The notes: generated by a model from the letters alone, not told the origin. Numbered from the stretch's first letter, positions 14,410 to 41,855 are shown. The stretch: 47,385 bases of DNA from Oscillospiraceae bacterium (GCA_015064945.1 SVRF01000009.1:1-47385), one strand, 5' to 3'. Program-made: numbers and translations.

Positions 14410-14435
14410 GCGGCGGCAGATTTTTCTGCCGCCGC
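14410..14435 (+). terminator. Hairpin after hydA, probable transcript end
   Basis: A perfect 11-base-pair stem, GCGGCGGCAGA / TCTGCCGCCGC, with a TTTT loop, 20 bases after the hydA stop. The tail is ATAAAAAATAAAAAA rather than a T-run, so it is not a textbook intrinsic terminator. It may end or protect the mRNA. Confidence 0.55.
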
Positions 14436-14521
14436 ATAAAAAATAAAAAAATTAATTTAAGAGTATTTGAATTTGTTTTTTTGTTTTTTAAAAATTACTT
14501 GACTATAGGGAGAATATGCTT

Positions 14522-15592
14522 ATGGCAAAGAGAGAAATAAAAAGAATAGGTGTTCTTACATCAGGAGGAGATGCGCCCGGTATGAATGCCGCGGTGCGTG
14601 CAGTAACAAGAACAGCCCTTGCCAATAACATAGAAGTTATCGGTATTTTGAACGGTTATCAAGGTCTTCTTGACGATAATATGATCTCCTTGTCACAGCG
14701 TGATGTTTCTTACATTATAAATCGCGGCGGTACTATGCTTTACACTGCACGTTGTGAAGCTTTTATGACTAGTGAAGGTGTAAGGAAAGCAGCTGATATG
14801 TGCCGTTCCAAGAATATAGACGGCGTCGTTGCTATCGGTGGTGATGGCACTTTCAGAGGCGCACATGCGTTGTCCGAAGAGGGGATAGCATGTGTTGGCG
14901 TTCCCGGTACAATTGATAATGATATTGCTGCCACCGATATGACTATTGGTTTCGATACGGCTATGAATACGGTTGTAGATCTGATAGACAAAATCCGTGA
15001 TACAGGCGAAAGTCATTCCCGTTGTAACGTTATTGAAGTAATGGGTAGGGAAGCAGGCGACATCGCTTTGCAAACTGCCTTGTCTGTTGGTGCTGTTGCG
15101 GCAATAGTTAAAGAACACCCCTGCGACTTAGATGCTTTAATTTCAAAAATGAAAGTAGCACGTAAAAACGGTAAGCGCAATTTTATAATTATAATTTGCG
15201 AAGGCATGGGTAAAGACTACGGCCCCAATTTAGTTGCTCGCATCGAAAAAGACACGGGCATAGAAACAAGACTTTCCATATTGGGTTATATTCAACGTGG
15301 CGGTTCTCCTACGCTTCGTGACAGGGTGTTGGCGACGCAAATGGGCGCGGCGGCAGTCAACAGTCTTCTTATGGGCGACACTAACGACATTATTTGTGCC
15401 CGTGGTAACGATATTGTTTCTGTTGAGATGTCTTATTCCGTAACTTTGGATAACCTTTATAAAGGAAAATTAAGTTGCGAAGAAGTAAAGAAAATCCCTC
15501 CCAGTGTTTTATTTGAAATGAACAAGCATATTGCTTCCAAGAAAGGGTATAAGGAATATATCAGCCATTTGATTGAATTTGTAAGTCTTTAA
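14522..15592 (+). CDS. pfkA: ATP-dependent 6-phosphofructokinase
   Basis: 356 residues; phosphorylates fructose-6-phosphate in glycolysis. ATG 14522 is preferred over ATG 14516 because it lies 9 rather than 3 bases after AGGGAG. Motifs: TSGGDAPGMNAAVRA (residues 14-27), IGGDGTFRGA (105-114), and the catalytic PGTIDND (128-134). Gly109 and Gly129 are the residues typical of ATP-dependent enzymes, whereas pyrophosphate-dependent enzymes have Asp and Lys at these positions. VMGREAGD and GYIQRGGSPT complete the substrate site. It is somewhat longer than the 320-residue E. coli-type enzymes. It stands alone between a hairpin and a terminator. No convincing promoter was recognised in the AT-rich gap upstream. 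Confidence 0.95.
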   Translation: MAKREIKRIGVLTSGGDAPGMNAAVRAVTRTALANNIEVIGILNGYQGLLDDNMISLSQRDVSYIINRGGTMLYTARCEAFMTSEGVRKAADMCRSKNIDGVVAIGGDGTFRGAHALSEEGIACVGVPGTIDNDIAATDMTIGFDTAMNTVVDLIDKIRDTGESHSRCNVIEVMGREAGDIALQTALSVGAVAAIVKEHPCDLDALISKMKVARKNGKRNFIIIICEGMGKDYGPNLVARIEKDTGIETRLSILGYIQRGGSPTLRDRVLATQMGAAAVNSLLMGDTNDIICARGNDIVSVEMSYSVTLDNLYKGKLSCEEVKKIPPSVLFEMNKHIASKKGYKEYISHLIEFVSL

Positions 15593-26900: not shown

Positions 26901-27457
26901 ACATCATGGTATTCGATACCGAAGTTTACTCCAACACCGGCGGTCAGGCTTCTAAGGCTTCTAACATCGGTCAGGTTGCACAGTTTGCTGCTGCCGGTAA
27001 AGCAATCGGTAAGAAGGACCTTGCCGCTATTGCAATGTCCTATGGTTATGTTTACGTGGCACAGATAGCTATGGGTTCTGATATGAACCAGACCATCAAG
27101 GCTATTACAGAAGCAGAATCTTATCCCGGTCCTTCCTTGATAATCGGTTATGCACCTTGCGAAATGCACGGTATTACCGGTGGCGGTATGCAGAACTCTC
27201 AGCTTGAGATGAAGAAAGCTGTTGATTCCGGTTACTGGCACACATTCCGTTACGATCCTCGCCGTGTTGCAGAAGGCGCTAACCCCTTCGTTCTTGATTC
27301 CAAGGAACCTACCTTGTCCTATCAGGATTTCATTAAGAGCGAAAACCGTTACAACACTCTTACCAGAGCTTTCCCTGAAAGAGCAGCTGTTCTCTTCGCA
27401 CAGGCTGAAGAAAACGCTAAGGCTAAGTACGCAAAGCTTAAGAAGTTGGCGGAATAA
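23909..27457 (+). CDS. nifJ: Pyruvate:ferredoxin (flavodoxin) oxidoreductase
   Basis: 1182 residues, a normal length for the single-chain homodimeric enzyme. It oxidises pyruvate and CoA to acetyl-CoA and CO2, reducing ferredoxin or flavodoxin. It begins with the PFOR N-terminal signature AAIYPITPSSPMAE and the MQSEAGAAGAVHG segment. Two ferredoxin-type clusters lie at C703-C706-C709-C713 and C758-C761-C764-C768. The proximal cluster motif is FSGSCAGCAETSYARL. The thiamine diphosphate site is GGDGWAYDIG (about 974) through VYSNTGGQASK. Near residue 48 there is a tandem KNIFGEPA/KNIFGDNV, an 8-residue duplication at the DNA level. Codon use is highly biased towards CTT, AAG, GGT and GTT, consistent with very high expression. 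It probably supplies reduced ferredoxin to the hydrogenase encoded at 9390-14389. Confidence 0.97.
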   Translation: MLRKKISMDGNTAAAHVSYAFTEVAAIYPITPSSPMAEVTDTWSASNKNIFGEPAKNIFGDNVKIVEMQSEAGAAGAVHGSLAAGALTTTYTASQGLLLMIPNMYKIAGELLPCVIHVSARCVASHALNIFGDHSDVYACRQTGFAMMAESNPQEIMDLGAVAHLATIKGRVPFLNFFDGFRTSHEIQKIEAWDYADLAEMVDFDAVKAFRERAINPEHPVLRGSAENGDIFFQHREACNTYYDAIPGIVEEYMEKVNAKLGTNYQLFNYYGAPDAEKVIIAMGSVCDVAEEVIDYLTAKGEKVGLIKVRLYRPFRADKLVAALPKTCKKIAVLDRTKEPGSLGEPLYLDVVTACATMGVNAKIVGGRYGLGSKDTPPSSIFAVYDNLDKDEPKNGFTLGIVDDVTGLSLEEKPAPDTSAEGTISCKFWGLGGDGTVGANKNSIKIIGDHTDKFIQAYFQYDSKKTSGLTISHLRFGDKPIKSPYYINKANFVACHNNAYLTQYDIVQDVVPGGTFLLDCAWTTEELDTKLPAAVKQYIAKNDINFYIIDGTGIAINRIGNAKVKNTVLQSAFFSLAGILPKDEAIEYMKKMAYKSYIKKGQAIVDLNYNAIEAGSDAYVKVDVPAAWATCADDAPKAAATGDRADLVAFVNDIVKPVGAMRGDSLPVSAFLKHADGTFPQGSSAYEKRGVAVSVPVWNNDKCIQCNMCSFVCPHAAIRPFALNEDEAAKAPACTKFTAKPVVKTDYKFTMAISPLDCMGCTLCVKACKVGALEMTSRVSQLDQQEAFDYAVSKVSEKPELINNTVKGSQFKQPLLEFSGSCAGCAETSYARLITQLFGERMYISNATGCSSIWGGSAPATPYTVNKESGCGPAWANSLFEDNAEHGLGMAIGQKTIRNRLIGYVKELAEKIEDADKKAIVDNYLATVDDGKTNTAATKALVAMLEACDCDCELKNKILAGKDYLSKKSVWIFGGDGWAYDIGFGGLDHVIASGEDVNIMVFDTEVYSNTGGQASKASNIGQVAQFAAAGKAIGKKDLAAIAMSYGYVYVAQIAMGSDMNQTIKAITEAESYPGPSLIIGYAPCEMHGITGGGMQNSQLEMKKAVDSGYWHTFRYDPRRVAEGANPFVLDSKEPTLSYQDFIKSENRYNTLTRAFPERAAVLFAQAEENAKAKYAKLKKLAE

Positions 27458-27470
27458 TTTTAAAGTTTAT

Positions 27471-27500
27471 GGGGCGGGCTTGGTACAGTCCGCCCCTTAG
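27471..27500 (+). terminator. GC-rich hairpin after the PFOR gene
   Basis: GGGGCGGGCT (27471-27480) pairs with AGTCCGCCCC (27487-27496) around TGGTAC. The T-run is weak (TTAGAAATTG), so some read-through into the next gene is likely. Confidence 0.6.
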
Positions 27501-27534
27501 AAATTGTATATGTTGATTTGGAGGTGCCTATTTC

Positions 27535-28614
27535 GTGAACGTGGATAATAAAAATAAATTGTACGAGTTTGAAAAGATTGCAATTATTGTTGTATTGGTT
27601 CTTGTTGTTGTGATAGGGGCTATTGTTGTGTCTATAGCAACGTCAGGAAATGACTCCCGTAACGACAAAGGCACCGATAGTGAACTTGTTATACAAGGAA
27701 CATCCGATATTTCCGAAACGGATGATTATACAGGAGACTCCGAACAGGGGGGCGAACAGGAGAATTCCGATGGTTTTGACGAAAATCCTCTGCAAGGTGG
27801 AAATGCGAACATAAAGTTTGAAACAATAACTGTTGATAACACAATGCTCACTGAAGGTGAGCTAGTTCTTGTAAATCAAGATTATGAATTCAGAAAGAAT
27901 ATTGAAGACTCGCTTGTAAACGTATATGCTGAAAAAGTTAAAAGAAATCAATCTTTTGTTTTGAGCACCACCACCTTGATGCTACGCATGGAAACCATAG
28001 ATGCGTTGTGCGATATGTTGGCAGGCTTTAATAAAGATACAAACATTGGTACACAAAGCTTGATGATAACAAATACATATGTTGATATAGATAAGCAACA
28101 AAGCGATTACGAAACGGAAGCGTCAAAGCTTGACAGTTCTAAATTGCCGTATTTACAGGCCGGTGGCGAGAGCGAGCATCACACAGGGTTGGCTTTTCAT
28201 ATGGTGGTATATCCCAATTCCCAAGGAAAGATGGGGCAGGGGTCTTATGAATGGTTCGTTGATAATTGCTGGAAGTACGGTTTTGTGTTGAGATACCCCG
28301 AAGGCAAAGAAGATAGGACGCAGGCCTTTGCTGATATTACACATTTCAGATATGTTGGCATACCACACGCTGCGTGTATGAATATAAATCAATGGGTCCT
28401 TGAAGATTATTTGGATTTCCTGCAGGATAGAACTTCTTTCGAAAATCGGAAAACCATAAAAGACAGCGAAGGCGTAGGTTATGAAGTGTATGCGGTGAAG
28501 GCTGACGAAAGCGGCAAGACGAAGGTGCCTGTGCCTGCTGCGGATTCGAATTGGTCTTATACTATAACAGGCGCAAATAATGGGTATTTCGTTGTTACAA
28601 TTAAATTAAAATAA
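27535..28614 (+). CDS. VanY-like D-alanyl-D-alanine carboxypeptidase family protein with altered metal motif
   Basis: 359 residues, GTG start 8 bases after GGAGGTG. A membrane anchor (about 15-37) is followed by an acidic low-complexity linker (about 38-95). A peptidase domain of VanY/LAS type occupies about 115-300 (YEFRKNIEDSLVNVYAEKVKR, then SEHHTGLAFHM and ITHFRYVG). In canonical VanY enzymes the zinc ligands are His and Asp in SxHxxGxAxD plus a later His, with a catalytic Glu near that His. Here the Asp position is H222, the other ligands would be H215 and H270, and the Glu position is D267. It may use a three-His site or have lost activity. The last 55 residues form a small C-terminal module. 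A substrate in peptidoglycan stem peptides is expected from the family. No promoter of its own was found, so it may be read from the PFOR transcript. Confidence 0.8.
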   Translation: MNVDNKNKLYEFEKIAIIVVLVLVVVIGAIVVSIATSGNDSRNDKGTDSELVIQGTSDISETDDYTGDSEQGGEQENSDGFDENPLQGGNANIKFETITVDNTMLTEGELVLVNQDYEFRKNIEDSLVNVYAEKVKRNQSFVLSTTTLMLRMETIDALCDMLAGFNKDTNIGTQSLMITNTYVDIDKQQSDYETEASKLDSSKLPYLQAGGESEHHTGLAFHMVVYPNSQGKMGQGSYEWFVDNCWKYGFVLRYPEGKEDRTQAFADITHFRYVGIPHAACMNINQWVLEDYLDFLQDRTSFENRKTIKDSEGVGYEVYAVKADESGKTKVPVPAADSNWSYTITGANNGYFVVTIKLK

Positions 28615-29004: not shown

Positions 29005-29033
29005 TTGACAAAGACTGTTAAATCTGCTAATAT
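29005..29033 (+). promoter_or_regulatory. Sigma-A-like promoter for the transport/DUF5696 operon
   Basis: Perfect TTGACA (29005-29010), 17-base spacer, TAATAT (29028-29033), then an approximately 50-base leader and TTAGGAGG before ATG 29092. No internal promoter or terminator was seen for the seven genes that follow. Confidence 0.8.
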
Positions 29034-29091: not shown

Positions 29092-32000
29092 ATGGCGAGA
29101 GTAACCTCTAAGCCCAAAAGAGTGTTTGTGTTTACGCTGATGCTTGTTATGCTTATGACAGGCTTTGGCTCTGTCGGTAACGCAAGCGCTACTGATTCTG
29201 CTAACATGGAACTTCCTGATTCCATGATCAGAACCGACTTGTCAGATATTAAGGATGAACTTTCATCTACTTCGTATTCTGACTATTTGACAGTGAATTC
29301 TTATTACACGGTAGATGAAAACGGCGAAACCGTAATTAATAAGGACATGCATGCAACTGCAAGACTTGACATTGACCTGTCTGCGTATGATAATGATCAT
29401 GAAGACTTGGCAACTGTTGATTTCTTCAAGGACGCATCTGAGATTGAAGGCATAGTTGGTGCCAATGGCAACTTTTCTGCTGTTGCAGTGGGTGATGACG
29501 GAAGTATTACATACACTTTTGTTGTTGAAAAAACCGCTTTTTACTGCTTAGAAGTTGGTTATTACACCGGCAATGTATATTTCTATCCTGAAGCTGAATG
29601 TAAGACTGATGCGGAAGGTAAGCACTATCACGACTATTACGCAACCGCAGTTAAGGATGAAGGCTATTCCAATTCTTCTGCAAAATGCGAGGAATGCGGA
29701 GCAGATCTTTCTGCAATCAGTGCGAAGAATTCTGCAATAGAGAGAAAAATCCTTATAGATGGTTCTATTCCGTATAAGGAATCTCGTTCCGTTAAGTTCC
29801 AGCGTTCTTGGGCAGACGTATACTATGTTGGTAAGGGCGACGATAGAAAAGAATTGCTTTCTAACTCCCCTGAATACATTGAAGCGTTGAAAAACGCCCA
29901 CAACAAAGGCGAAACACTTTTTGTTACGGACGCTAACAAGAACGAGAAGAAACCCGAAAAGGCACTCATAAATGAGTGGGTTGCTACTGAAGTTTATGAC
30001 TCTACGGGTTATGCTTCAGATCCTCTTATGTTTTACTTGGAAGCCGGCACTCATACAGTTACTATAGACGCAATAAGAGAGCCTGTTATATTTAATTCTT
30101 TGGCATTCGTCCCTGTAAAGGTGTCAAAGACATACGAACAGTATCTCGCTGAACATAAGGATGCTAAGGATGTTCCTGCAGGTATCTGCATAACTCTCCA
30201 GGGCGAGGATTCCTGCAAAACTTCTTCAAACACCATTTATCAGACAAGCGATAGGACTTCTGCTTATACAGAGCCTCAGGATGTTGCTTGCACACTTCTC
30301 AATGAGATAGGCGGCGATAAGTGGCAGTACGTTGGTCAATGGATCGAATGGCAGGTTTCTGTTCCCGAAACAGGTTTCTATAACATTGTACCCCGTTCTA
30401 TTCAGGACTTCTATTCCGGCGTGTTTGTTTCCAGAAAGTTTTATATCGACGGTGAGGTTCCTTTTGAAGAGGCAGGCGCACTTCGTTTCGATTATAGCGA
30501 CGTGTGGAAGACAGGCGGTCTTACCGACGGGAAGACTAACTTTAAGTTCTACTTGGAGAAGGGCACTCACGTTATAAGACTTGAAGTTGTTCTTGGCGAA
30601 ATGGCTCAAATCCTTAGCGATGTTGAAACCTCTCTTAACAACATTAACTCTTATTATAGAAAAATATTGATGATTACCGGTCCCGACCCCGATGAATATC
30701 GTGACTATAGCTTCGAAAGAACTCTTCCGGAAGTAGTAAGAGGTCTTAGAAACGAAGCTAAGATACTTGAAGGCATATACGATGCACTTGTTTCTGCAAT
30801 GGGCCCTGGTGACCACTCTGTAACGCTTGAGAAAGTTGCATATACCGTTAAGCAAATGGGTAATCAGCCTTCTAAAATAGCGGCATTGATGGACGACCTT
30901 AAGACACAGACAGGTTCTTTGGGTACATGGCTAACACAAACACAGAATCAGCCTCTCAATATAGACTATATAAAGTTTATGGCTCCTTCTGATGAACTGC
31001 CCGAGGCAGAGGCAGGCTTCTTCAGGGAACTTTGGCAAGAAATTCTCAAGTTCATTATGTCCTTCTTTACCGATTATACTTCTATAAGCAGTGCTGACGG
31101 CAAGGGGACGAGCGAAACCGACCAAGCTCACACCGTAGAGGTTTGGGTTACCACCGGTCGTGACCAGGCTTCTATTTTGAGAAACTTGGTAGACGATAAG
31201 TTCTCTATAATGTATCCCGGCATCAATATTAAAGTTAAGCTTGTTGCCGCAGGTACATTGTTGCCCTCCACTTTGGCAGGTACAGGCCCTGACGTAGCTT
31301 TGGGTAATGCACAGACTGAAGCTATAAACTACGCTATTCGTTCTGCCGTAATGGCGCTCAACGATACGACTGTGTATGGTAAAGATGATGATGTAAAGGG
31401 TTACGATTTCAACAATTTTGATATTTATAAAGACGATCCTGTATATAAGAACAATGGTTATTATACCGTGGCTGATGACGGTTCTTTAGATTGGAATGTA
31501 GATACAATTGACGAAGTTAGGACTCGCTTTGCAAATCAGGCAACTGTTCCTTTGACGCTTTACGGTAAGTTGTACGGTATTCCTGAAAATATGTCTTTCT
31601 ATATGATGTTCTACAGAAAGGACATACTTGCAGAACTCGACCTTACTGTTCCTAATACTTGGGATGATTTCTATCAAATGATTTATACCTTGCAGTCCAA
31701 CAAGTTGGAGATAGGTTTCCCCTCCGGTGTTACCGGTTCTACGATTTGGATGTACCAAAAGGGTATAACTATGTATGATGAAGGCAACTTTGATGCTTAT
31801 AAGAATAATAAGGATTATTGGAACAAGTTGCAGTCTTCCGGCAATACCTATACACACGTTTATTACGATGACGAATGGAACAAAATAGGGGAGGAAGAAC
31901 TGCCCAAGACAAACGGTATGACCATTAATTTGGATGACGAAGTTGCACTTGCGTGCTTCGAAGACGTTTGTCAGCTTTATACAATGTATGATTTCCCTGT

Positions 32001-32604
32001 AACCTATGACTTCGCTAACCGTTTCCGTTCCGGCGAAATGCCTATAGCAATCGCTGACTATACAGCTTATAACCAGTTGATAGTATTTGCTCCTGAAATT
32101 AACGGCATGTGGGAGTTTACTCCTCTTCCCGGTACCGTTGGTGATGATGGTAAGATCAACAATACTACTGTAGGTACCGTTACAACGATGATGATGCTTC
32201 GTTCTGTTGAAGAAAGAGGTAACGAATTTGCTTCCTATATATTTATGCAGTGGTGGTCCGGTGCAGATGCACAGAGCAGCTACGGTAACGAAATGGAAGC
32301 TCTTCTCGGTCCTTCTGCTAAGCAGAACACGGCAAATATGGAAGCGCTCTATTCCATGCCTTGGACTAAGAGCGAATACGACAACCTTTCCGCACAGTTT
32401 AACAGCGTAACTTGTACTCCTGAATATCCCGGTGGCTACATCATAGCACGTTATGCACAGTTTGCATTCTTGGCAGTTTACAACGAAGACGCTGAACCTG
32501 TTGAAAAGTTGCAGTCTTACATCACAACAATCAATGCAGAGCTTTCTCGTAAGAGACAAGAGTTCGGTTTGCCGATAGTTGAAGATTATCCGTTGGATAA
32601 ATAG
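29092..32604 (+). CDS. Extracellular solute-binding protein fused to duplicated beta-sandwich-like modules
   Basis: 1170 residues, almost three times a normal sugar-binding protein. The signal peptide ends at an ASA-type SPase I site near residue 34; there is no lipobox cysteine. Two similar modules follow. Module 1 (about 140-345) has KILIDGSIPYKES near 219 and MFYLEAGTHTVTI near 313. Module 2 (about 395-515) has KFYIDGEVPFEEA near 449 and KFYLEKGTHVIRL near 485. These look like carbohydrate-binding beta-sandwiches (inference). A helical linker (520-670) leads to a family 1-like solute-binding domain from about 680 (TVEVWVTTGRDQASIL, GTGPDVALGNAQTEAINYA, LYGIPENMSFYMMFYRKD, MPIAIADYTAYNQ). 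It is presumably the substrate receptor for one or both permease pairs in the operon. A glycan substrate is likely but unspecified. Confidence 0.88.
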   Translation: MARVTSKPKRVFVFTLMLVMLMTGFGSVGNASATDSANMELPDSMIRTDLSDIKDELSSTSYSDYLTVNSYYTVDENGETVINKDMHATARLDIDLSAYDNDHEDLATVDFFKDASEIEGIVGANGNFSAVAVGDDGSITYTFVVEKTAFYCLEVGYYTGNVYFYPEAECKTDAEGKHYHDYYATAVKDEGYSNSSAKCEECGADLSAISAKNSAIERKILIDGSIPYKESRSVKFQRSWADVYYVGKGDDRKELLSNSPEYIEALKNAHNKGETLFVTDANKNEKKPEKALINEWVATEVYDSTGYASDPLMFYLEAGTHTVTIDAIREPVIFNSLAFVPVKVSKTYEQYLAEHKDAKDVPAGICITLQGEDSCKTSSNTIYQTSDRTSAYTEPQDVACTLLNEIGGDKWQYVGQWIEWQVSVPETGFYNIVPRSIQDFYSGVFVSRKFYIDGEVPFEEAGALRFDYSDVWKTGGLTDGKTNFKFYLEKGTHVIRLEVVLGEMAQILSDVETSLNNINSYYRKILMITGPDPDEYRDYSFERTLPEVVRGLRNEAKILEGIYDALVSAMGPGDHSVTLEKVAYTVKQMGNQPSKIAALMDDLKTQTGSLGTWLTQTQNQPLNIDYIKFMAPSDELPEAEAGFFRELWQEILKFIMSFFTDYTSISSADGKGTSETDQAHTVEVWVTTGRDQASILRNLVDDKFSIMYPGINIKVKLVAAGTLLPSTLAGTGPDVALGNAQTEAINYAIRSAVMALNDTTVYGKDDDVKGYDFNNFDIYKDDPVYKNNGYYTVADDGSLDWNVDTIDEVRTRFANQATVPLTLYGKLYGIPENMSFYMMFYRKDILAELDLTVPNTWDDFYQMIYTLQSNKLEIGFPSGVTGSTIWMYQKGITMYDEGNFDAYKNNKDYWNKLQSSGNTYTHVYYDDEWNKIGEEELPKTNGMTINLDDEVALACFEDVCQLYTMYDFPVTYDFANRFRSGEMPIAIADYTAYNQLIVFAPEINGMWEFTPLPGTVGDDGKINNTTVGTVTTMMMLRSVEERGNEFASYIFMQWWSGADAQSSYGNEMEALLGPSAKQNTANMEALYSMPWTKSEYDNLSAQFNSVTCTPEYPGGYIIARYAQFAFLAVYNEDAEPVEKLQSYITTINAELSRKRQEFGLPIVEDYPLDK

Positions 32605-32643
32605 GCGATATACTTTTTATAAAAATATTCAAGGAGATGTAAT

Positions 32644-33597
32644 ATGGAACAAAAGACAATTTCTGAGCAGCAGCAACCTGTGCTTAGAAGAGACAAATCA
32701 AAGCTCCAGTGGACTTGGATAGAAATGAAAAAGTATAAAGTTGCGTATCTTATGATCGCGCCTTTCTTCCTTCTTTTCTTCACTTTCACTGTTGTGCCTG
32801 TGCTTTTATCTGTTGTACTAAGTTTTACAACATTTAATATGCTTGAATTCCCCGACTTTATTTGGTTTGACAACTATATCAGACTTTTCCTTGATGATGA
32901 TATATTCATTTTGTCAATCAAAAACACTTTTATCTTTGCGTGTATAACCGGTCCCGTTTCTTATCTGCTGTCATTGTTTATTGCGTGGTTTATTAACGAA
33001 CTTAAGCCTAAGCTTAGAGCTTTCGTTACCCTTATATTCTACGCACCTTCTATAGCAGGTAACGTATATCTTATTTGGACCTTGCTTTTCTCCGGTGACC
33101 AATACGGTCTTGTTAACTCCTGGCTTATGCGCTTGGGCTTTATCAGCTCTCCGGTACTGTGGTTCCAGGATACCGATTACATATTCCCTTTGGTAATAGT
33201 AGTTGCTTTGTGGACCAGTCTCGGCACATCCTTCTTGACCTTCATTGCAGGCTTCCAGGTTGTTGATAAATCCTTGTATGAAGCAGGTGCGGTTGACGGT
33301 ATTAAGCACCGTTTCCAGGAACTTTGGTACATAACATTGCCGACTATGAAGCCTCAGCTTATGCTTGGTGCTATCCTGGCAATAACAAACTCTTTCGGTT
33401 TCGGTGCAGTTATAACGGCGTTAGTTGGCTTCCCCAGCCCTGACTATTGCGTGCACACAATAATGCACCATCTGCAGGACTACGGCGGATCACGTTTTGA
33501 GATGGGGTACGCTTCTGCAATCGCTACCATTTTGTTCTTGATGATGGTAGGTGCTAATGCGCTTGTAACAAAAATGATGAGAAAGGTGGGTACGTAA
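32644..33597 (+). CDS. Sugar ABC permease, MalF/UgpA type (pair 1)
   Basis: 317 residues after AAGGAGATG. Six transmembrane segments are predicted by eye, starting at about 34-60 (AYLMIAPFFLLFFTFTVVPV). The cytoplasmic EAA loop is EAGAVDGIKHRFQELWYITLPTMKP, the site that docks on the shared ATPase. A hydrophilic N-tail of about 30 residues precedes the first helix. It is the first partner of the permease encoded 6 bases downstream. No ATPase gene is in the operon, as is usual for Clostridia that share one MsmX/UgpC-type ATPase among many sugar transporters. Confidence 0.93.
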   Translation: MEQKTISEQQQPVLRRDKSKLQWTWIEMKKYKVAYLMIAPFFLLFFTFTVVPVLLSVVLSFTTFNMLEFPDFIWFDNYIRLFLDDDIFILSIKNTFIFACITGPVSYLLSLFIAWFINELKPKLRAFVTLIFYAPSIAGNVYLIWTLLFSGDQYGLVNSWLMRLGFISSPVLWFQDTDYIFPLVIVVALWTSLGTSFLTFIAGFQVVDKSLYEAGAVDGIKHRFQELWYITLPTMKPQLMLGAILAITNSFGFGAVITALVGFPSPDYCVHTIMHHLQDYGGSRFEMGYASAIATILFLMMVGANALVTKMMRKVGT

Positions 33598-33603
33598 TAA
33601 GTT

Positions 33604-34491
33604 ATGGCAAAAAAATTGACCAGAGCTCAAAAGAAGGGCGACAAACCAAAGCGTCTGAACCGTTCAACGGGCGGCGATGCGGGTATATTTGTTTTCCTTG
33701 CTTTGTTTGGCGTAATTATGGTTTTCCCTATGGTATACGCTATTTCTCAGTCTCTCAAGCCTCTTGATGAATTGTGGCGTTTCCCTCCCAGAGTTTTTGT
33801 TGAGAACCCAACAGCTAAGAACTACAAAGATTTGTTCCGTATGTTGGGCGATGCATGGGTACCTTTCTCACGTTACATATTTAACACTGTGTTCATTTCC
33901 GTGTTAGGTACAGCAGGCAACGTATTGTTTTCTTCCTTGGCAGCTTATGCTCTTGCTAAGATTGCTTTCCCCGGCAGAAAATTCTTCTTTAAGATAGTTG
34001 TATATTCGTTGATGTTTAACTCAACGGTTACGGGTATAACAAACTTTATTACCATGTCTTTGTTTGGTATGATCGATACTTACTGGGCAATTATTGTTCC
34101 TGCATGGTGTACGACTTACGGCTTGTATTTGATGAAGCAGTTTATGGAGACTTCGGTTTCGGACCCTGTTTTGGAATCTGCAAGACTTGAAGGCGCTAGT
34201 GAAATGAAAATATTCTGGGTTATTGCAATGCCCATGGTTAAACCTGCTTGGGTAACCCTCATAATATTTGCGTTTAACGGTTTGTGGAATAGTGGTACAA
34301 GTACTTATATCTATAGCGAGCAGCTTAAGACCTTTAACTACGCTATAAGCCAAGTTGTTTCCGCTGGTATCGCAAGAGCCGGTGCTTCTGCAGCGTCTAC
34401 AGTTGTTACAATGATCGTTCCGATTATCGTGTTTATAATTACACAAAGCAACGTAATTCAGACGATGTCTACTTCCGGTATGAAAGACTAA
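33604..34491 (+). CDS. Sugar ABC permease, MalG/UgpE type (pair 1)
   Basis: 295 residues. The N-terminal basic tail (KKLTRAQKKGDKPKRLNRS) is followed by membrane segments from about 30 onwards (GIFVFLALFGVIMVFPMVYA). The EAA loop is ESARLEGASEMKIFWVIAMPMVKP. It forms a heterodimer with the permease encoded immediately upstream. It probably imports an oligosaccharide delivered by the fused binding protein. The next gene is 13 bases away with its own AAGGAGG site. Confidence 0.93.
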   Translation: MAKKLTRAQKKGDKPKRLNRSTGGDAGIFVFLALFGVIMVFPMVYAISQSLKPLDELWRFPPRVFVENPTAKNYKDLFRMLGDAWVPFSRYIFNTVFISVLGTAGNVLFSSLAAYALAKIAFPGRKFFFKIVVYSLMFNSTVTGITNFITMSLFGMIDTYWAIIVPAWCTTYGLYLMKQFMETSVSDPVLESARLEGASEMKIFWVIAMPMVKPAWVTLIIFAFNGLWNSGTSTYIYSEQLKTFNYAISQVVSAGIARAGASAASTVVTMIVPIIVFIITQSNVIQTMSTSGMKD

Positions 34492-34504
34492 TAAGGAGGA
34501 TAAC

Positions 34505-36841
34505 ATGAAAAAGCGATTAATTAAAATTTTAGTGTTGTCGTTTTGCATCGTTATGCTTCTTGGCAGCATTTCAGCAAGCGCAATAGTTCCTTATACCACT
34601 TATACGTATGACGTAAACGGTAAGATGGTTAAAAGCCCTCATGCATACGTTTCGTCTACACTTATTACAGCAAATTCTGTTTTGAAAAAATTCGAAGCAG
34701 GTGCTAATAAGAATGCAAGCGCTCTATATACAACCGACGACATAGCTTTCGGATCTATAGAGGACGTTTGTACCGATGAAGAAGAGAACGTGTATCTCTC
34801 TGACTCCATAAACAACAACGTAAAGGTTTTGGATAAAAACTATGCGTTGAAGTTTATCATCAGCGAGTTTATTAACGATGAAGGTGTTCATGACTCTTTG
34901 TCCGGCCCCACAGGCTTGTATGTATCCGACACTGAAATTTATGTTGCAGATACGAAAAACAAGCGTATAGTTATATTTGACAAGCTTGGTAATTTTGTGT
35001 GCATAGTTCCCGAACCTTCCAGCGATGTTATGCCTGCAAACAGCATTTATACTCCTATAGCTGTTGCCGCAGACCAAGCGGGGCGTGTTTATGTTGTTTC
35101 TCAGAGTACTAACTACGGCGTTATTTCTCTTAACAGAGATGGATCTTTTAATAACTTTATCGGTCCTCAAAAGGTTTCTTATAACGCATTTACTATCTTG
35201 TGGCGTTCTTTGTTCCTCAGCGATGAGCAGATTGCTGCAGGTGAAAAGTTTGTACCAACCGAGTATAACAACATCACAATTGACTCTGAAGGTTTCCTTT
35301 TTGTAACTACATCCTCTATCGACGCTGCTAAGCAGCAGGAAGCTATAACGGCGCGAGATAAGACCGCAGACTTCGCACCTGTTAAAAAGCTTAATCCCAA
35401 CGGAAGTGACGTTTTGCGACGCAACGGGTTTTATCCTCCTTCCGGTGAAGTTGATGTTAACACTATTGCGACGGCTGAAAATGCTATAACAGGCGCTTCT
35501 GTTATTGTTGACGTCGCTCTTGGGCCCTCCGGCATGTGGAGTATAATCGACCAAAAACGTAGCCGTATATTTACATATGACAATAACGGCAACCTATTAT
35601 TTGCTTTTGGTGACAAGGGTGAACAAATAGGGCAGGGCACAGCCTTTAACGCAATAGCATATCAGGGTACAAAAATGCTTGTTCTCAGCGACCTTAATAT
35701 CATAACCGTTTATGAAAGAACCGAGTATGGTGATTTGGTTGCTGCGGCTTTGCAGAATACTTTGGATCAAAACTATGATTTATCTGTAGAGTATTATAAG
35801 AGTATTCTCCAGCACAACAACAACTATGACAGTGCGTATATCGGCATTGCTCAGAGCTTGTATCGTGACGGTGAATATGAAGAGTCTATGAAGTATTGTA
35901 AGCTTGCTTACGATACCGAAAACTATTCTATTGCCTATGCTGCTTTGCGTAAACAATGGATAGAAAAGTATGTTTATTGGATTCCCGTTGTTATTGTTGC
36001 TTTCTTCTTTATCCTCAGCAAGTGTATGTCATACATTTCTAAGGTAAACAAGAAGGGTCTTGTTTACAAAGAAAAGCGCACCCTTAAGGAAGAAGTGTTT
36101 TATGCATTCCATATTTTGACACATCCTTTTGACGGCTTCTGGGATCTTAAGCATGAAAAGCGCGGCTCCATTAAGGGCGCGACAACAATCCTTATAATTA
36201 CAGTTATTGCTTTTGTTTACCAATCTATGGGTAGAGGGTATCTTTTTGATCCCTACAACGAAGGCGCAAACATAATGATGACGATTTTGTCAGTACTTTT
36301 GCCGGTTGTTCTTTGGGTTACAGCAAACTGGTGCTTGACAACATTGTTTGACGGCGAAGGTAGTTTGAAGGATGTATATGTTACCACATGTTATGCAATC
36401 CTTCCTCTTCCCCTAACGATTATTCCTTCTGTTTTTGCATCTAATTTCACTGTTTTAGATGAACAGGGCTTGGTAAATCTTCTTACAGGCATTGGTTTTG
36501 TTTGGGCATTTATGCTACTGTTCTTCGGCGTAATGGTTATTCATGACTACGGCTTGTTTAAGAATCTCATAACAATATTGGGTAGTATCATTGCAATGGC
36601 GTTTATCATGTTCATAGGCATATTGTTTACTAGCCTTGTACAAAAGATTGCATCTTTCATCTACACAATATTTATTGAGCTTAAGTTGAGAGGTAGTACC
36701 GACAGCATAGGCGAGTTCTTTGCTAAACCTCTTAATGTTATTATAACCGTTGTTGCTGTAATCGCTGTTATAGCTATATTCGTTCTTGCAAGTAAGGGAA
36801 TGAAGAAACTTAAAGAAAAATTCGGAAAGGTAGGTAGATAA
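34505..36841 (+). CDS. NHL-repeat, TPR-like and Yip1-like membrane protein
   Basis: 778 residues after TAAGGAGG. A signal peptide (KKRLIKILVLSFCIVMLLG...ASA) exports about 390 residues of NHL/beta-propeller-type repeats. Repeated units are visible: FGSIEDVCTDEEENVYLSDS, LSGPTGLYVSDTEIYVADT (followed by KNKRIVIFD), YTPIAVAADQAGRVYVVSQS and VALGPSGMWSIIDQKRSRIF. A TPR-like pair of helices (SVEYYKSILQHNNNYDSAYI, DGEYEESMKYCKLAY) precedes a membrane segment at about 497-513. The last 250 residues carry five or so membrane segments of Yip1 type (GATTILIITVIAFVYQSM; GSLKDVYVTTCYAILPLPLT). The propeller is therefore likely outside and the Yip1-like part in the membrane. Such proteins recur next to DUF5696 proteins and sugar permeases in Bacillota, as far as I recall, with no known function. 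A sensing or gating role is inference. Confidence 0.8.
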   Translation: MKKRLIKILVLSFCIVMLLGSISASAIVPYTTYTYDVNGKMVKSPHAYVSSTLITANSVLKKFEAGANKNASALYTTDDIAFGSIEDVCTDEEENVYLSDSINNNVKVLDKNYALKFIISEFINDEGVHDSLSGPTGLYVSDTEIYVADTKNKRIVIFDKLGNFVCIVPEPSSDVMPANSIYTPIAVAADQAGRVYVVSQSTNYGVISLNRDGSFNNFIGPQKVSYNAFTILWRSLFLSDEQIAAGEKFVPTEYNNITIDSEGFLFVTTSSIDAAKQQEAITARDKTADFAPVKKLNPNGSDVLRRNGFYPPSGEVDVNTIATAENAITGASVIVDVALGPSGMWSIIDQKRSRIFTYDNNGNLLFAFGDKGEQIGQGTAFNAIAYQGTKMLVLSDLNIITVYERTEYGDLVAAALQNTLDQNYDLSVEYYKSILQHNNNYDSAYIGIAQSLYRDGEYEESMKYCKLAYDTENYSIAYAALRKQWIEKYVYWIPVVIVAFFFILSKCMSYISKVNKKGLVYKEKRTLKEEVFYAFHILTHPFDGFWDLKHEKRGSIKGATTILIITVIAFVYQSMGRGYLFDPYNEGANIMMTILSVLLPVVLWVTANWCLTTLFDGEGSLKDVYVTTCYAILPLPLTIIPSVFASNFTVLDEQGLVNLLTGIGFVWAFMLLFFGVMVIHDYGLFKNLITILGSIIAMAFIMFIGILFTSLVQKIASFIYTIFIELKLRGSTDSIGEFFAKPLNVIITVVAVIAVIAIFVLASKGMKKLKEKFGKVGR

Positions 36842-36844
36842 TAT

Positions 36845-39748
36845 ATGAAAATGAATAAATTATTTACCGCCATTGCAATTGCTGTAATATTTGCATTGTG
36901 TGTTCCTTTCTGTTGCGTTCTTTCTGTTGCTGCCGCTGAAGAAGAACAAGCTAACAAGTGGGATAGTTTGCAAGCGGCTTATATGGCTGCACCTTTTGCT
37001 AATATCGCGGAGCGTATTTATGCGAATGGTCCTACTGTTGATCCTGTTACGGGTAGTATACCTTCTATGAAGCTAATATATCCTACTATTGAGGCTTTTG
37101 AAAAGGTAGAAGATAAGTTCGCTTTGAAAATTGAAAATGCTCAATACGCACTTTATGTTGACGATTTGACAGGCGAACTTGTGTGCCTTAAGTTGGTTGA
37201 TAGAGATGAAGACGGTTATGCCGATGTACATCCCGACTTCCTTTCTTCTACAGTTAAAGATATAGACAATAATGATGTCAGTGTTTTTGACTATTGTGGT
37301 AAATGGGCTACCAACCCTTACAGCATCGGTAGCTCTACTGCAGCAACTTCTGTTAAGGCACAGCTTTATTCTCAGCTTATTATTGAATACACCGATAACG
37401 GTGTTGCTGAGAAGTATTATAGCTTTGAAGAATCAGCACTTTATGACCAAATTAAAGTTTCCGGCATTAAAAACGGTGCCAGGGTTGAATACGCTGTAGG
37501 TGAACAAGCTGTTAAGTATCTTGTACCTTTCTTCATTACTGAAGAAAAATACAACGCTTTGATGGCACAGGTTGAAGAAGGCCTTCGTGCTGCTTATCCT
37601 AATGACAGTGACTTTAATTTTTATTTTGAAAAAGCTACGGTTCTTTATCGCGACTATTCAAAAGACGACCTTGCCGGCCAGCCTGAGTATATAATTAACG
37701 CAGTTGAGCGTTTGGGCACATGTTATTTGTACGACTATAAAACCGGCAAAGGTAAAAACCTTGACCTTTTGGAAAGTTACATTTCCGAGTATACCAACTA
37801 TACTTACGAGCAGTTGGATGAAGATCATGCTGAAACAGGTTACACAGTTGCTACCGAAGCTCCCGCTTCCTTTAAGTTAGCTATTGAGTATACCTTTGAC
37901 GAGTATGGTATGATGATTCGTTGTTCCGCTGGTAATATACGATTTGACTCTTCTTCTTTCCAGTTGGATGACGTATACTTGCTTCCATATGCAGGTGCTG
38001 GTGACATTAACAATGAAGGCTTTGCGCTTTATCCTGATGGTTCCGGTGCTATAATTGATTTTAAGGATGCACGCTCTCAAACCTTTACATTGGTTACAAC
38101 CGCTTACGGTCAGGACTATGCATTTTCAACGATTTCCGGTGCAAACAACGAAGATGCAAGATTACCTGTATTTGGTATGGCTGAAGTAACAACGGATGAT
38201 GAAGGAAATAAAAACTCTTCAGGTTTCTTGGCCTACGTTGAAGAGGGTGAGTCTTTGGCAGATATATCCGTGAATTGTATTGCCAATTCCCATCCTTATC
38301 TCCAGGCATATACCAAATTTAATCCCCGTCCTTCTGACCAATACAGTCTTAGCGGCGGTATTTCCAGTGGTTCCACTATGTGGACTGTTGAAGCTAAGCG
38401 TAAGTATACCCGTAACTATAGAGTGAGAATTTTCATTTTGGAGGAGCAGGATACAAGCTATTCCGAAATGGCTAACACCTTGCGTAGTTACTTGATTGAC
38501 AAAGGCGTTATTTCTTTGATGGACGAAAAAGAAGACAAAGACATACCTTTGGTAATCGAAACATTGGGCGCTATAGAAACCACTGCCCGTATTTTGGGTG
38601 TTCCTTATGCTAAGATGCAAGCACTTACTTCTTTTGAGGATGTTCAAAAGAACATAGTAGGGAAGTTGCGCGGCGAAGACGTTGCCGAACCTATTAATAA
38701 CATAGTTGTTAAGCTTAACGGCTGGTTGGACGGCGGTCTTGACTATAATGTTCCCAGTGGTGTAGAAATTGAAGATGCTCTTGGTGGTGAAGACGGCTTT
38801 AAGAGCTTGGTTGATTTCTGTAAGAAGAATAATGTAACACTTTATCCTGATTTTGATTTCTCTTATTCAAGAGTGGATGAAATGTTCGATGGCTTTGATG
38901 CAGATAAGGATTTGGCTCGTACAATAGACGACAGAAAGTCTTATAAGAAGACCTATAATCCTATTTATCAAACATACGATTATAGCGGCCAAGGCGTTAT
39001 TTCTTCTAACAGAATGATGCATTTTTATGATTCTACTTATGCTGAGTATAAGAATTACAAAATCGGCAACATTTCTGTTTCTACATTGGGCGGCAACTTG
39101 AATTCCGACTTCAATGAAGACGATCCTTTAAATAGAGAGGACTCTAAAGTTTTAGTTGACAGACTCCTTAAGAAAGTCAGCGAGCAGAACGAAAATGTAA
39201 TGCTTTCCGGTGGTAATATTTTCACTGTTAAGTATGCAGATATAATCCTCGACGTTCCTCTTGAAGATTCTCTGCTTAGATACACTTCTACCGAGATACC
39301 TTTCTACAGCATGGTTCTTCACGGCTCTGTTGAATATGCGGGTTCAGCTTTGAACCTTGCAGGTGATTATCAGGCTTCTGTTTTGAAGACGATCGAAAGC
39401 GGTGCAGTTCCTTACTTTATTGTTGCTGCACAAAACACTTCTGACCTTAAGAATAGTGGCGTTTATTCCATGTATTACTCTGTAAGATACAGCATTTGGC
39501 TTGAAGATATCTATTATACGTATCACAAAATTAACGATGTTCTTAAAAACGTTAAATATAGCCAAATAATTAAGCATGAATTCCTTGACGACTATTATAA
39601 CGTTGTTCGTGTAACTTACGATAACGGTTATTCTATTGTTGTTAACTACAATGATGAAGAATTTACTTATCGTGATAACGGAATTTATACTGTTGACGCA
39701 TCCGGTATTTTGATATTCAAAGACGGTGCGCTTGTAACAAATGAGTAA
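36845..39748 (+). CDS. Large exported DUF5696-like protein
   Basis: 967 residues. ATG 36845 lies 3 bases after the previous stop and uses AAAGGTAGG at the end of that gene. An N-terminal signal peptide (KMNKLFTAIAIAVIFALCVPFCCVLSVAAA) is followed by a long extracellular protein without an obvious membrane anchor. The middle contains beta-rich stretches (EYTFDEYGMMIRCSAGNI; LYPDGSGAIIDFKD; AEVTTDDEGNKNSSGFLAYVEEGES). The last third has alpha/beta segments with NIVVKLNGWLDGGLDYNVPS, VTLYPDFDFSYSRVDEMFDG and FYSMVLHGSVEYAGSALNLA, which look like a TIM-barrel-like enzyme core. Candidate acidic residues occur in DFDFSY. I match it to the DUF5696 type only by memory of layout and context. Extracellular glycan recognition or hydrolysis is a reasonable hypothesis, not established. 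Confidence 0.72.
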   Translation: MKMNKLFTAIAIAVIFALCVPFCCVLSVAAAEEEQANKWDSLQAAYMAAPFANIAERIYANGPTVDPVTGSIPSMKLIYPTIEAFEKVEDKFALKIENAQYALYVDDLTGELVCLKLVDRDEDGYADVHPDFLSSTVKDIDNNDVSVFDYCGKWATNPYSIGSSTAATSVKAQLYSQLIIEYTDNGVAEKYYSFEESALYDQIKVSGIKNGARVEYAVGEQAVKYLVPFFITEEKYNALMAQVEEGLRAAYPNDSDFNFYFEKATVLYRDYSKDDLAGQPEYIINAVERLGTCYLYDYKTGKGKNLDLLESYISEYTNYTYEQLDEDHAETGYTVATEAPASFKLAIEYTFDEYGMMIRCSAGNIRFDSSSFQLDDVYLLPYAGAGDINNEGFALYPDGSGAIIDFKDARSQTFTLVTTAYGQDYAFSTISGANNEDARLPVFGMAEVTTDDEGNKNSSGFLAYVEEGESLADISVNCIANSHPYLQAYTKFNPRPSDQYSLSGGISSGSTMWTVEAKRKYTRNYRVRIFILEEQDTSYSEMANTLRSYLIDKGVISLMDEKEDKDIPLVIETLGAIETTARILGVPYAKMQALTSFEDVQKNIVGKLRGEDVAEPINNIVVKLNGWLDGGLDYNVPSGVEIEDALGGEDGFKSLVDFCKKNNVTLYPDFDFSYSRVDEMFDGFDADKDLARTIDDRKSYKKTYNPIYQTYDYSGQGVISSNRMMHFYDSTYAEYKNYKIGNISVSTLGGNLNSDFNEDDPLNREDSKVLVDRLLKKVSEQNENVMLSGGNIFTVKYADIILDVPLEDSLLRYTSTEIPFYSMVLHGSVEYAGSALNLAGDYQASVLKTIESGAVPYFIVAAQNTSDLKNSGVYSMYYSVRYSIWLEDIYYTYHKINDVLKNVKYSQIIKHEFLDDYYNVVRVTYDNGYSIVVNYNDEEFTYRDNGIYTVDASGILIFKDGALVTNE

Positions 39749-39764
39749 GGGGGCCGGAGATAAT

Positions 39765-40748
39765 ATGAAAAACAAAATAACAGTTTCTTCTTTGAGTTGT
39801 CCGGCAAAAAGGCGTAAGTCTAAATCGTTGGAAAAGCGCAGAGCAAGGATGGGGTATGTATTTGTACTGCCTTTTATATTGGGCTTTGCTTTTATATACC
39901 TTCCTATGATTATTGAGTCCTTGAGAATAAGCTTCAGCCAAATAGATGCAACCGTCCAGCCCGTTGCGTATAACTATGTCGGTTTTCAAAACTATATAGA
40001 AGCGTTTAAGGGTGAAGATGTAAGGTTTTTGCAGGAGTTAGGTACAAATCTATTGGATTTGCTTTTGGATGTTCCCGCAATAGTAATATTCTCCTTATTC
40101 CTTGCAATTATTCTTAATCAAAAAATGCGTGGTAGAGCGGTGTTTAGAGCTATATTCTTTATCCCTGTTATAGTTTCTACAGGTATAATCGAATATATCG
40201 ATATTGCTGCAAATACTATGACAGAAAGCATGGGCGCTGTTAACTCCGGTGGTGAGGCCGGTCAGGCGGCATCTGCAGGTGCAGAAATCATTAATCAGAT
40301 TGACGTACAAAAATTCTTTGCAAACATGGCTGTTGGTGAAGGGTTAGTAAACTACGTTACCGGTCTTGTTAATGACGTTTACGGCATAATTAACCGTTCC
40401 GGTGTACAGTTGCTGATATTCCTTGCAGGTTTGCAGTCTATTTCTCCTGCGATTTATGAATCTGCTTACATTGAAGGTTCGTCTTCTTGGGAAACGTTTT
40501 GGAAGATAACCTTCCCCATGATAAGCCCTATGATCCTTGTTAATGCAATATACACCATAATCGATGCATTTACGACCGAATCTAATAACGTTATGAAGTA
40601 TATTACAGAAATTAACGAAACTTCCGGTACAACCAATCTGTCTTTGGCAATGTCCATGTCTTGGATGTATTTCTTGGTAATTTTGGTGATTATAGGTGCG
40701 GTTGCGGGTATTATATCTGCTTACGTATTCTATCAACGTAGAGACTAA
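39765..40748 (+). CDS. Sugar ABC permease, MalF/UgpA type (pair 2)
   Basis: 327 residues. ATG 39765 is preferred: GGGGGCCGGAG lies 5 bases upstream, whereas ATG 39741 is inside the preceding gene. The basic N-tail leads to membrane segments from about 35 (GYVFVLPFILGFAFIYLPMI). The EAA loop is ESAYIEGSSSWETFWKITFPMISP. An unusual hydrophilic insertion of about 60 residues (TMTESMGAVNSGGEAGQAAS to about GEGLVNYVTGL) lies between membrane segments, probably outside the cell. It could contact the large exported proteins of the operon (inference). Confidence 0.93.
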   Translation: MKNKITVSSLSCPAKRRKSKSLEKRRARMGYVFVLPFILGFAFIYLPMIIESLRISFSQIDATVQPVAYNYVGFQNYIEAFKGEDVRFLQELGTNLLDLLLDVPAIVIFSLFLAIILNQKMRGRAVFRAIFFIPVIVSTGIIEYIDIAANTMTESMGAVNSGGEAGQAASAGAEIINQIDVQKFFANMAVGEGLVNYVTGLVNDVYGIINRSGVQLLIFLAGLQSISPAIYESAYIEGSSSWETFWKITFPMISPMILVNAIYTIIDAFTTESNNVMKYITEINETSGTTNLSLAMSMSWMYFLVILVIIGAVAGIISAYVFYQRRD

Positions 40749-40766
40749 GAAAGGGGGAAATGATAT

Positions 40767-41801
40767 ATGGATTCTTTCGACAGACCTAATTATTCAAAAA
40801 AGAACATAAAGTTTGATGAAAATGTATCCCGTTGGACTCGTTTTAAGTATAAGTATCTGACCCTTTTCGCTTTAAAAAAGTTCTTTTGGGCGTTGTTTAG
40901 ATACGCATTGCTTGTAGGTATTTCTTACGTTATTCTTTTCCCTTATTATTCAAAGATTTCTACATCTTTGATGTCGGGTGAGGATTTCGTTGACATTACA
41001 GTAAAACTCGTACCTAAGTATCCTACACTTGATACTTACAAGATGATTCTAAATGAAACTTCGTTTTGGCAGGCAACTTTGAACACGGGGCTTGTATCCT
41101 TGTTCTGTGGCGTCGTTCAGATGCTGATGTGCTCTTTGGTTGGTTATGGTTTCTCCAAGTTCAATTTCAAAGGAAAGTCTTTGTTATTCTTGTTTGTGAT
41201 TATAACCCTAGTAATTCCCCACAAGACGATGCAGTCTACCATGAGATTTTTCTTCCAAGACTTTAAGATTTGGGGCATTCCCTTGGGTATTAACCTTCTT
41301 AATCCCGAATCTAATTCCGTAATCGCTTCTAACTGGCCTATCGCAATGCTGTCCTTCGGTGCTATTGGTTACAGAAACGGCTTGTACATATTTATGATGC
41401 GTCAGTTCTACAAAGGCGTTCCCGATGAACTTGAAGAAGCGGCTTACGTTGACGGTGCCGGTACAATGCGTACGTTTTGGCGTATAATCATTCCTATGTC
41501 CGTGCCTATGATGGTAACCATATTCATCTTTACCTTCTCTTGGCAGTGGACTGATAGATTCTATACCAAGATGCTGTATGCAAACTCCGATTACGTATTC
41601 TTTAACCAAATACTTGATGAGGTTCAAAAAACACCTACGACATTACGTTGGTTTAATGACTACGCACAGATCGCAAACAGTTATTCTCTTGCAATTCAGA
41701 ATGCTGTTGGTATACTTATTCTCATACCGCTTGTTATTATATTCCTCTTCGGTCAGAAGAAGCTTGTACAAGGTATCGAGCGTAGCGGCGTTACCGGTTA
41801 A
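40767..41801 (+). CDS. Sugar ABC permease, MalG/UgpE type (pair 2)
   Basis: 344 residues after AAAGGGGGA. A charged N-tail of about 45 residues is followed by membrane segments (FRYALLVGISYVILFPYYS and onward). The EAA loop is EAAYVDGAGTMRTFWRIIIPMSVP. It is the last gene of the operon, followed by a strong terminator. It is clearly paired with the previous permease. The long extracellular loop before the EAA helix (FFQDFKIWGIPLGINLLNPE) is longer than in MalG. Confidence 0.93.
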   Translation: MDSFDRPNYSKKNIKFDENVSRWTRFKYKYLTLFALKKFFWALFRYALLVGISYVILFPYYSKISTSLMSGEDFVDITVKLVPKYPTLDTYKMILNETSFWQATLNTGLVSLFCGVVQMLMCSLVGYGFSKFNFKGKSLLFLFVIITLVIPHKTMQSTMRFFFQDFKIWGIPLGINLLNPESNSVIASNWPIAMLSFGAIGYRNGLYIFMMRQFYKGVPDELEEAAYVDGAGTMRTFWRIIIPMSVPMMVTIFIFTFSWQWTDRFYTKMLYANSDYVFFNQILDEVQKTPTTLRWFNDYAQIANSYSLAIQNAVGILILIPLVIIFLFGQKKLVQGIERSGVTG

Positions 41802-41816
41802 TATTTATCAATTACA

Positions 41817-41855
41817 ATTTAAGGCGACTGCATTTGCGGTCGCCTTAATTGTTTG
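41817..41855 (+). terminator. Rho-independent terminator of the transport operon
   Basis: TTAAGGCGACTGC (41819-41831) pairs with GCGGTCGCCTTAA (41836-41848) around ATTT with one G-U pair. The 3' side continues TTGTTTGTTG. Confidence 0.9.

Follow-up and report, generated by a model that had tools for sequence, protein, structure and literature searches.

The subject of this analysis is an operon of seven genes at positions 29092-41801 of a 47,385-nucleotide stretch of DNA from an Oscillospiraceae bacterium (GCA_015064945.1 SVRF01000009.1:1-47385; the whole stretch is called the window below). The gene for a fused solute-binding protein (SBP) comes first and is followed by those for permease pair P1, for an NHL/TPR/Yip1 and a DUF5696 protein, and finally for permease pair P2. 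It is probable that this operon encodes a membrane-tethered glycan-capture platform that feeds two type I importers driven by one shared ATPase. A surface glycan-capture assembly had been proposed in an earlier sequence-only reading, and as a description of the system this is well supported: it is a conserved glycan-type system with CBM35-like modules, a maltose-binding-protein (MBP)-like domain, a glycosidase fold and, in relatives, neighbouring glycoside hydrolases (GH). The operon consists of two separable modules, however, and a single physical complex of all the parts is something we infer. The seven-gene double-permease operon itself was found as described, with all open reading frames in place on the + strand:

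29005..29033, + strand: candidate promoter TTGACA-17-TAATAT, with TG before the second hexamer (consensus scan, 10/12)
29092..32604, + strand: fused solute-binding protein, 1170 amino acids (aa) (AlphaFold2, MBP-like match, CBM35 profile, hydropathy)
32644..33597, + strand: permease P1a (UgpA/MalF-type), 317 aa, coupling loop EAGAVDGIKHRFQELWYITLP (Pfam PF00528, 1.4e-10)
33604..34491, + strand: permease P1b (UgpE/MalG-type), 295 aa, coupling loop ESARLEGASEMKIFWVIAMP (NCBIfam UgpE, 4e-20)
34505..36841, + strand: protein of 778 aa with signal peptide, NHL propeller, TPR and C-terminal multi-pass Yip1 part (PF04893, 5.8e-15; PF01436, 6e-9)
36845..39748, + strand: DUF5696 protein, 967 aa, with N-terminal signal or anchor helix and predicted GH129/GH101-like fold (PF18952, 8e-151)
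39741..40748, + strand: permease P2a (UgpA/MalF-type), 335 aa, coupling loop ESAYIEGSSSWETFWKITFP (PF00528, 7e-10)
40767..41801, + strand: permease P2b (UgpE/MalG-type), 344 aa, coupling loop EAAYVDGAGTMRTFWRIIIP (PF00528, 9e-16)
41819..41848, + strand: intrinsic terminator, 13-pair stem with 7 GC pairs (terminator scan, strongest in the scan)

The gaps between the genes measure only 3 to 39 nt and one stop/start pair overlaps by 8 nt, so the seven genes likely form one transcription unit.

The association of these genes is not a peculiarity of the window. Neighbourhoods were sampled from its family, order and phylum, as well as from named genomes retrieved with the SBP as the only query, and the full set of seven genes in the same order was present in 34/38, 18/20, 12/20 and 71/80 of these loci, respectively; most incomplete loci stop at contig ends. 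Since the same genes thus occur in the same order in 135 of the 158 loci, the arrangement SBP-P1a-P1b-NHL-(Yip1)-DUF5696-P2a-P2b exceeds chance. The co-occurrence of DUF5696 with Yip1-like proteins in other Bacillota, mentioned in the sequence-only reading, is thereby borne out by neighbourhood comparison, and extends to both permease pairs. Carriers include Paenibacillus, Cohnella, Neobacillus, Lederbergia, Butyrivibrio and many metagenome-assembled genomes of gut Clostridia, and several Clostridia possess multiple paralogous copies of the operon per genome. Within the window's family (63 genomes, 13 genera), DUF5696 was found above the cut-off in 51 genomes and the fused SBP in 46, nearly always as a single copy.

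Sequence divergence gives a more detailed picture of how the genes have travelled together. Some genomes enter more than one neighbourhood sample, and for the 120 complete operons left after removal of duplicates, pairwise gene divergence was correlated across all seven genes (r 0.85-0.95). The correlation between the SBP and P2a, for instance, is 0.85, a value to be compared with a maximum of 0.13 in 999 label permutations. The coefficients fall into two groups, with 0.93-0.95 among NHL, DUF5696, P2a and P2b, 0.94 for P1a versus P1b, and 0.85-0.90 between the groups. Module 1 thus comprises the fused SBP and P1, and module 2 the NHL/Yip1 protein, DUF5696 and P2. Three further loci of the phylum sample (L104, L107, L109) carry both modules in swapped order, and one group of Clostridia genomes has module 2 alone (L096, L097, L102) or module 1 alone (L251, L257). 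Because divergence is most tightly correlated within modules, and order swaps and rare stand-alone modules occur, the two permease pairs can be said to belong to modules that are able to separate but very seldom do. A solitary DUF5696 gene was found in one locus (L090). The stand-alone module 2 of L097 (948-5499) lies beside genes for an SBD_N/NBD_C (DUF1537-type) protein, PdxA, DHDPS and an apiosidase-like hydrolase.

The modules that persist alone could be taken to mean that the operon merely co-transcribes two independent oligosaccharide importers with a conventional secreted GH129-like glycosidase, in which case DUF5696 would cleave the glycan, each permease pair would import a different product and the NHL/Yip1 protein would be an accessory. 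We consider this doubtful, as both the linkage in so many loci and the correlated divergence exceed what is expected for unrelated importers; its enzymatic side is taken up below. Free separation of the permease pairs had been named in advance as the observation that would speak against a single system, and as a rule it can be rejected, even though separation does occur in the five loci mentioned.

Pfam BPD_transp_1 (PF00528) matches genes 2, 6 and 7 above the cut-off, while gene 3 (P1b) falls just under it (22.9 vs 26.4 bits) and is recognised by the NCBIfam UgpE model. P1a is 24.5% identical to P2a over 277 aa (E=8e-18) and P1b is 24.7% identical to P2b over 247 aa (E=5e-14); this level of similarity, about 25%, indicates that P1 and P2 are two paralogous CUT1 (type I) importers. 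Three features that define such importers are found, namely heterodimeric MalF/MalG-type permeases with an EAA loop, an MBP-type SBP and a UgpC/MsmX-type ATPase in the genome; uptake of carbohydrate is predicted. In the EAA coupling loops, the E, G and P residues are kept almost without exception in P1a, P1b, P2a and P2b (144-146 orthologues each), and in P1a they are invariant among 144 orthologues. The translation start of P2a may be an internal ATG. A plain transporter without ATPase, or an operon in decay, was rejected because the coupling loops of all four permeases are intact and a co-occurring UgpC-type ATPase exists. The intact coupling loops of P2 in all lineages also make it highly improbable that one pair alone imports and that the NHL/Yip1-DUF5696-P2 module acts as a sensor reporting occupancy. 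Such a role might be imagined for an NHL/TPR/Yip1 protein that has no known function in transport, next to a P2 pair for which the window's operon has no SBP gene of its own, but many relatives have lipoprotein SBPs along with the operon.

A shared ATPase encoded elsewhere is the usual arrangement of CUT1 importers in several Bacillota. The remark in the sequence-only reading that there is no ATPase holds for the seven-gene operon, but not for the genome, which has a single OB_MalK ATPase on another contig (C60). This protein scores above the NCBIfam UgpC cut-off (485 vs 432 bits) and has MsmX (6yir) among its closest solved structures. Of the 50 genomes in the window's family that carry the operon, 46 have an OB_MalK ATPase, versus 2 of the 13 that do not carry it (Fisher p=1.5e-7); when only genomes that are at least 80% complete are counted, the figures are 41/45 and 1/5 (p=0.0014). 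The p values are indicative only, because the genomes are related and incomplete. Two family members of about 91% completeness (G036 and G021) lack both the operon and the ATPase, which suggests that the two were lost jointly. On a plasmid of Paenibacillus cellulosilyticus (NZ_CP054609.1, L210), a ugpC gene lies directly upstream of the same operon. Thus, the genome's only UgpC/MsmX-type ATPase is probably the one that serves the operon, with physical pairing predicted.

Known cases of this type are the oligosaccharide importers that share MsmX in B. subtilis or MsmK in A. bescii (PMC7658222, PMC5730181, PMC8579813), and MsmX was characterised as a multitask ATPase serving several sugar importers (PMC7658222). 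With an ATPase of the shared type located in the genome but outside the operon, the system studied here resembles the clients of such multitask ATPases, as it does in its MalF/MalG-type pairs, intact coupling loops and MBP-like receptor. It differs from them by the presence of two permease pairs, by obligate NHL/Yip1 and DUF5696 partners, and by a receptor that lacks a lipobox and carries a helical bundle besides its two CBM35-like modules. AviABCD of C. bescii (Athe_0595-0598) was also weighed as a possible described relative but dismissed, since it is reported to be a four-gene transporter of the ordinary kind that has two SBPs.

Structure prediction had been proposed for both large exported proteins. 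The fused SBP has an N-terminal hydrophobic helix at residues 11-29, as judged from hydropathy. In its AlphaFold2 model (pLDDT 87.0), two beta modules at about 100-345 and 360-505 precede a helical bundle (504-657), and residues 680-1160 form an MBP-like domain (Z 29.5, root-mean-square deviation (rmsd) 2.8, 372 residues aligned). A profile of the second beta module finds the CBM35 of cycloisomaltooligosaccharide glucanotransferase (PDB 5x7g) with E=1.8e-10, and individual members match CBM_6 (1.2e-5) and CBM_35 (2.9e-4). The duplication of modules that had been noticed from the sequence is real, module 1 being a duplicate of module 2 (hhalign 99.6%, E=9e-24). According to these models and profiles, the receptor combines a pair of CBM35-like modules with a helical bundle and a domain of the maltose-binding-protein type. 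The second module resembles known CBM35/CBM6 modules, such as those of cycloisomaltooligosaccharide glucanotransferase (PDB 5x7g, 3wnp), but is joined here to an SBP instead of to a glycoside hydrolase. The helical bundle is highly conserved; its profile also matches designed coiled coils, a compositional effect of which no account was taken. Most orthologues have no lipobox, and in several Bacilli the protein begins with an apparent uncleaved membrane helix, as judged from hydropathy.

The model of the DUF5696 protein (pLDDT 89.8) has the architecture of the GH129 enzyme NagBb and the GH129-like DagB, with a beta-sandwich, a (beta/alpha)8 barrel and a C-terminal beta domain. It aligns with DagB (5opq_D) at Z 31.4 (rmsd 3.9, 597 residues aligned) and with NagBb (5wzn_A) at Z 29.5 (579 aligned), whereas the scores with GH101 and GH36 are well below these, at about Z 17-19. 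The similarity is also detectable from sequence alone, since a profile of 69 DUF5696 sequences finds PDB 5opq with E=6.8e-11. The Pfam GH129 model PF11308 does not match the protein, and hmmscan up to E=1 gives PF18952 only; when GH129 itself was considered as the origin in Bacillota, PF11308 was found in 0/249 genomes, but control genomes gave no match either, so absence of this family is not established. Matches of the barrel profile to designed repeat proteins are compositional and were disregarded. Compared with NagBb, an alpha-N-acetylgalactosaminidase of GH129, and DagB, a GH129-like 3,6-anhydro-D-galactosidase (PDB 5wzn, 5opq; PMC5698469), DUF5696 shares the overall fold and a significant profile similarity, but it is 300 residues longer, its catalytic pair is unrecognisable, it lacks the PF11308 match, and it is partnered with ABC permeases.

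The question whether DUF5696 is an active glycosidase bears directly on the idea of independent importers with a conventional secreted enzyme. The profile match to a GH129-type protein favours it, as does the Asp that 94% of the Bacilli sequences have at the end of beta-4 (position 747). In the window's family, however, this position is Thr or Ser. Across DUF5696, the end of beta-5 (Gly790-Asn791) has no conserved acid, and Asp755 is located further along the loop. Conserved barrel residues among 146 sequences are Asp755 (93%), Arg764 (100%), Asn791 (96%) and Asn837 (100%). By motif comparison and inspection, the TENAY motif of GH101 corresponds to GGNAY in DUF5696, in which the acid/base Glu is missing. 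Searches of plasmids with PDB fragments returned only GH101-type proteins, and hhalign to these anchors beta-1 to beta-2 only, with low probability. DagB is reported to retain only one of the two catalytic residues of NagBb (Asp435, equivalent to Asp486 of DagB) and has further acids at Glu517 and Glu531 (PMC5698469). These comparisons hint that the family, or at any rate the window's lineage of it, is a pseudo-enzyme that binds glycan; they are no proof, because the equivalence of residues between DUF5696 and GH129 rests on strand order and motif similarity and not on superposed coordinates. DUF5696 also has short and divergent paralogues (about 565 aa, profile 190-604) outside ABC operons (L069, L070; G048:C9, G033:C81, G050:C106), which are possibly free-standing enzymes or lectins. 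An apparently extended or fused version is found in L255 (1-4625, - strand), where an open frame of 1554 residues contains DUF5696 and reaches the end of that locus.

The fourth protein has Pfam matches to Yip1 and NHL, with a weak match to TPR, and its hydropathy peaks lie at 493-511 and 554-763. In Bacilli, the NHL gene, with one C-terminal transmembrane helix, and the Yip1 gene are separate (L159/L091/L174), whereas they are fused in the lineage of the window. The NHL/TPR part is predicted to lie outside the membrane, where it probably serves as a scaffold.

The way in which we infer the platform to operate, from capture of a glycan to hand-over to the permeases, is as follows. The CBM35-like modules and DUF5696 would hold a polymer or long oligosaccharide outside the membrane, with DUF5696 binding and perhaps trimming it, and the NHL/TPR domain, anchored through the membrane part of Yip1 type, would be the likely scaffold. 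The MBP-like domain of the fused SBP would pass oligosaccharides to P1, and lipoprotein SBPs, of which one or more accompany module 2 in many relatives, would deliver to P2. A single UgpC/MsmX-type ATPase encoded elsewhere would drive both pairs. A bolder form of this proposal, which we find rather unlikely, is that the products of all seven genes assemble into a single envelope-spanning complex that has two transport pores, in which a DUF5696 protein that has lost catalysis serves as glycan receptor, NHL-TPR-Yip1 is the scaffold and exchangeable lipoprotein SBPs plug in. This would make it a Gram-positive counterpart, functional but not homologous, of the Sus-type machines.

The context of the operon in relatives fits the pattern of nutrient-glycan importers of varied specificity, as far as gene neighbours can tell. 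Genes that follow the operon are enriched in glycoside hydrolases and SBPs: the next gene on the same strand after P2b encodes a GH26 in 8 of 54 cases, and others include GH30, GH10, GH5, GH113, GH2 and further SBPs. In most Bacilli and in some Clostridia, genes for lipoprotein SBPs immediately precede that of the fused SBP, and others are placed ahead of the NHL gene; they adjoin the operon in Lachnospiraceae too, and two of them lie downstream of it in Butyrivibrio and P. cellulosilyticus. A Butyrivibrio plasmid has a GH43 and a two-component system alongside the operon. The latter copy agrees with the concept of a Gram-positive polysaccharide utilisation locus (gpPUL), which combines a polysaccharide-degrading enzyme, a transport system and a transcriptional regulator (Sheridan et al. 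2016, PMC5320581). The operon resembles gpPULs in its ABC transport genes and surface glycan-binding parts, and some relatives also have the adjacent glycoside hydrolases and regulators. At the window locus, transport genes are present, without a regulator adjoining the operon or a proven degradative enzyme, and this copy does not qualify as a gpPUL. Furthermore, a gpPUL is a variable locus, whereas the operon is a fixed seven-gene core.

A solitary lipoprotein SBP is encoded elsewhere in the window's genome (G000:C68:16826-18283; L205:6826-8283, - strand), beside an RNB-domain gene and pgk/tpi and with no permease nearby. Similar SBPs, often solitary or in tandem, are multiplied in the family (relatives in L211-L250) to up to 23 per genome (G026), and no CUT1-type permease occurs within several kb of about 25 that were examined. 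As partner of P2, the orphan SBP on C68 is a lead only; its orthologue is present in the operon-less G036 and similar SBPs are abundant in operon-less genomes.

Several observations weigh against the platform reading. In the window, no glycoside hydrolase, regulator or sugar-catabolic gene adjoins the operon; shared ancestry and incomplete assemblies may account for part of the link with the ATPase; and four operon-bearing genomes of the family have no OB_MalK match. On the P. cellulosilyticus plasmid, several LLM-class flavin-dependent oxidoreductases are encoded downstream, beside the two SBPs, so plain sugars need not be the substrate of every copy; their presence hints at a non-standard substrate for this copy. 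In the window's gut family, one could also think of a housekeeping role, such as recovery of the cell's own surface-polymer fragments instead of foraging on dietary glycans. We regard this as quite improbable: family genomes with the operon nearly always have just one copy, its place behind the genes for pyruvate:ferredoxin oxidoreductase and the VanY-like peptidase is conserved, and in the window no degradative enzymes are adjacent, but it is absent from the reasonably complete relatives G036 and G021, and elsewhere in Bacillota it is multiplied to several copies per genome and placed beside hemicellulases.

If the glycan-capture platform exists as proposed, a standard importer common to Bacillota has defining parts that are still labelled 'unknown function', and the DUF5696 protein, the NHL/Yip1 protein and the CBM-fused receptors would acquire a testable role. 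It would also help to explain the orphan UgpC/MsmX ATPases of small gut genomes, and provide a marker of glycan uptake for uncultured gut Clostridia without Sus proteins. If the glycosidase fold is inactive, as is possible, it would represent an enzyme family recruited as transport receptor. The function of the operon appears to be undescribed in the open literature, in line with the sequence-only reading: neither a paper on DUF5696 nor one linking NHL/Yip1 to ABC genes was found there, subscription journals being mostly outside coverage.

Of the two borders that had been assigned to the transcription unit, the terminator near 41817 is confirmed by the hairpin at 41819-41848. The promoter at 29005 is present as a TTGACA-17-TAATAT sequence of sigma-70 type, but it is a candidate only, because promoter-like sites are not commoner in the region than in shuffled sequence (31 vs 36). 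Upstream of the operon there are no operator-like inverted repeats besides the terminator of the preceding gene, and no Rfam elements were found in the window. On either side lie housekeeping genes with no relation to the operon, those for pyruvate:ferredoxin oxidoreductase and a VanY-like peptidase upstream and those of pyrimidine biosynthesis downstream. Two segments of the window (10833-15592 and 23909-28614) encode an NADH-dependent [FeFe] hydrogenase, phosphofructokinase, pyruvate:ferredoxin oxidoreductase and the VanY-like D,D-carboxypeptidase, and the last two precede the operon in other family members also.

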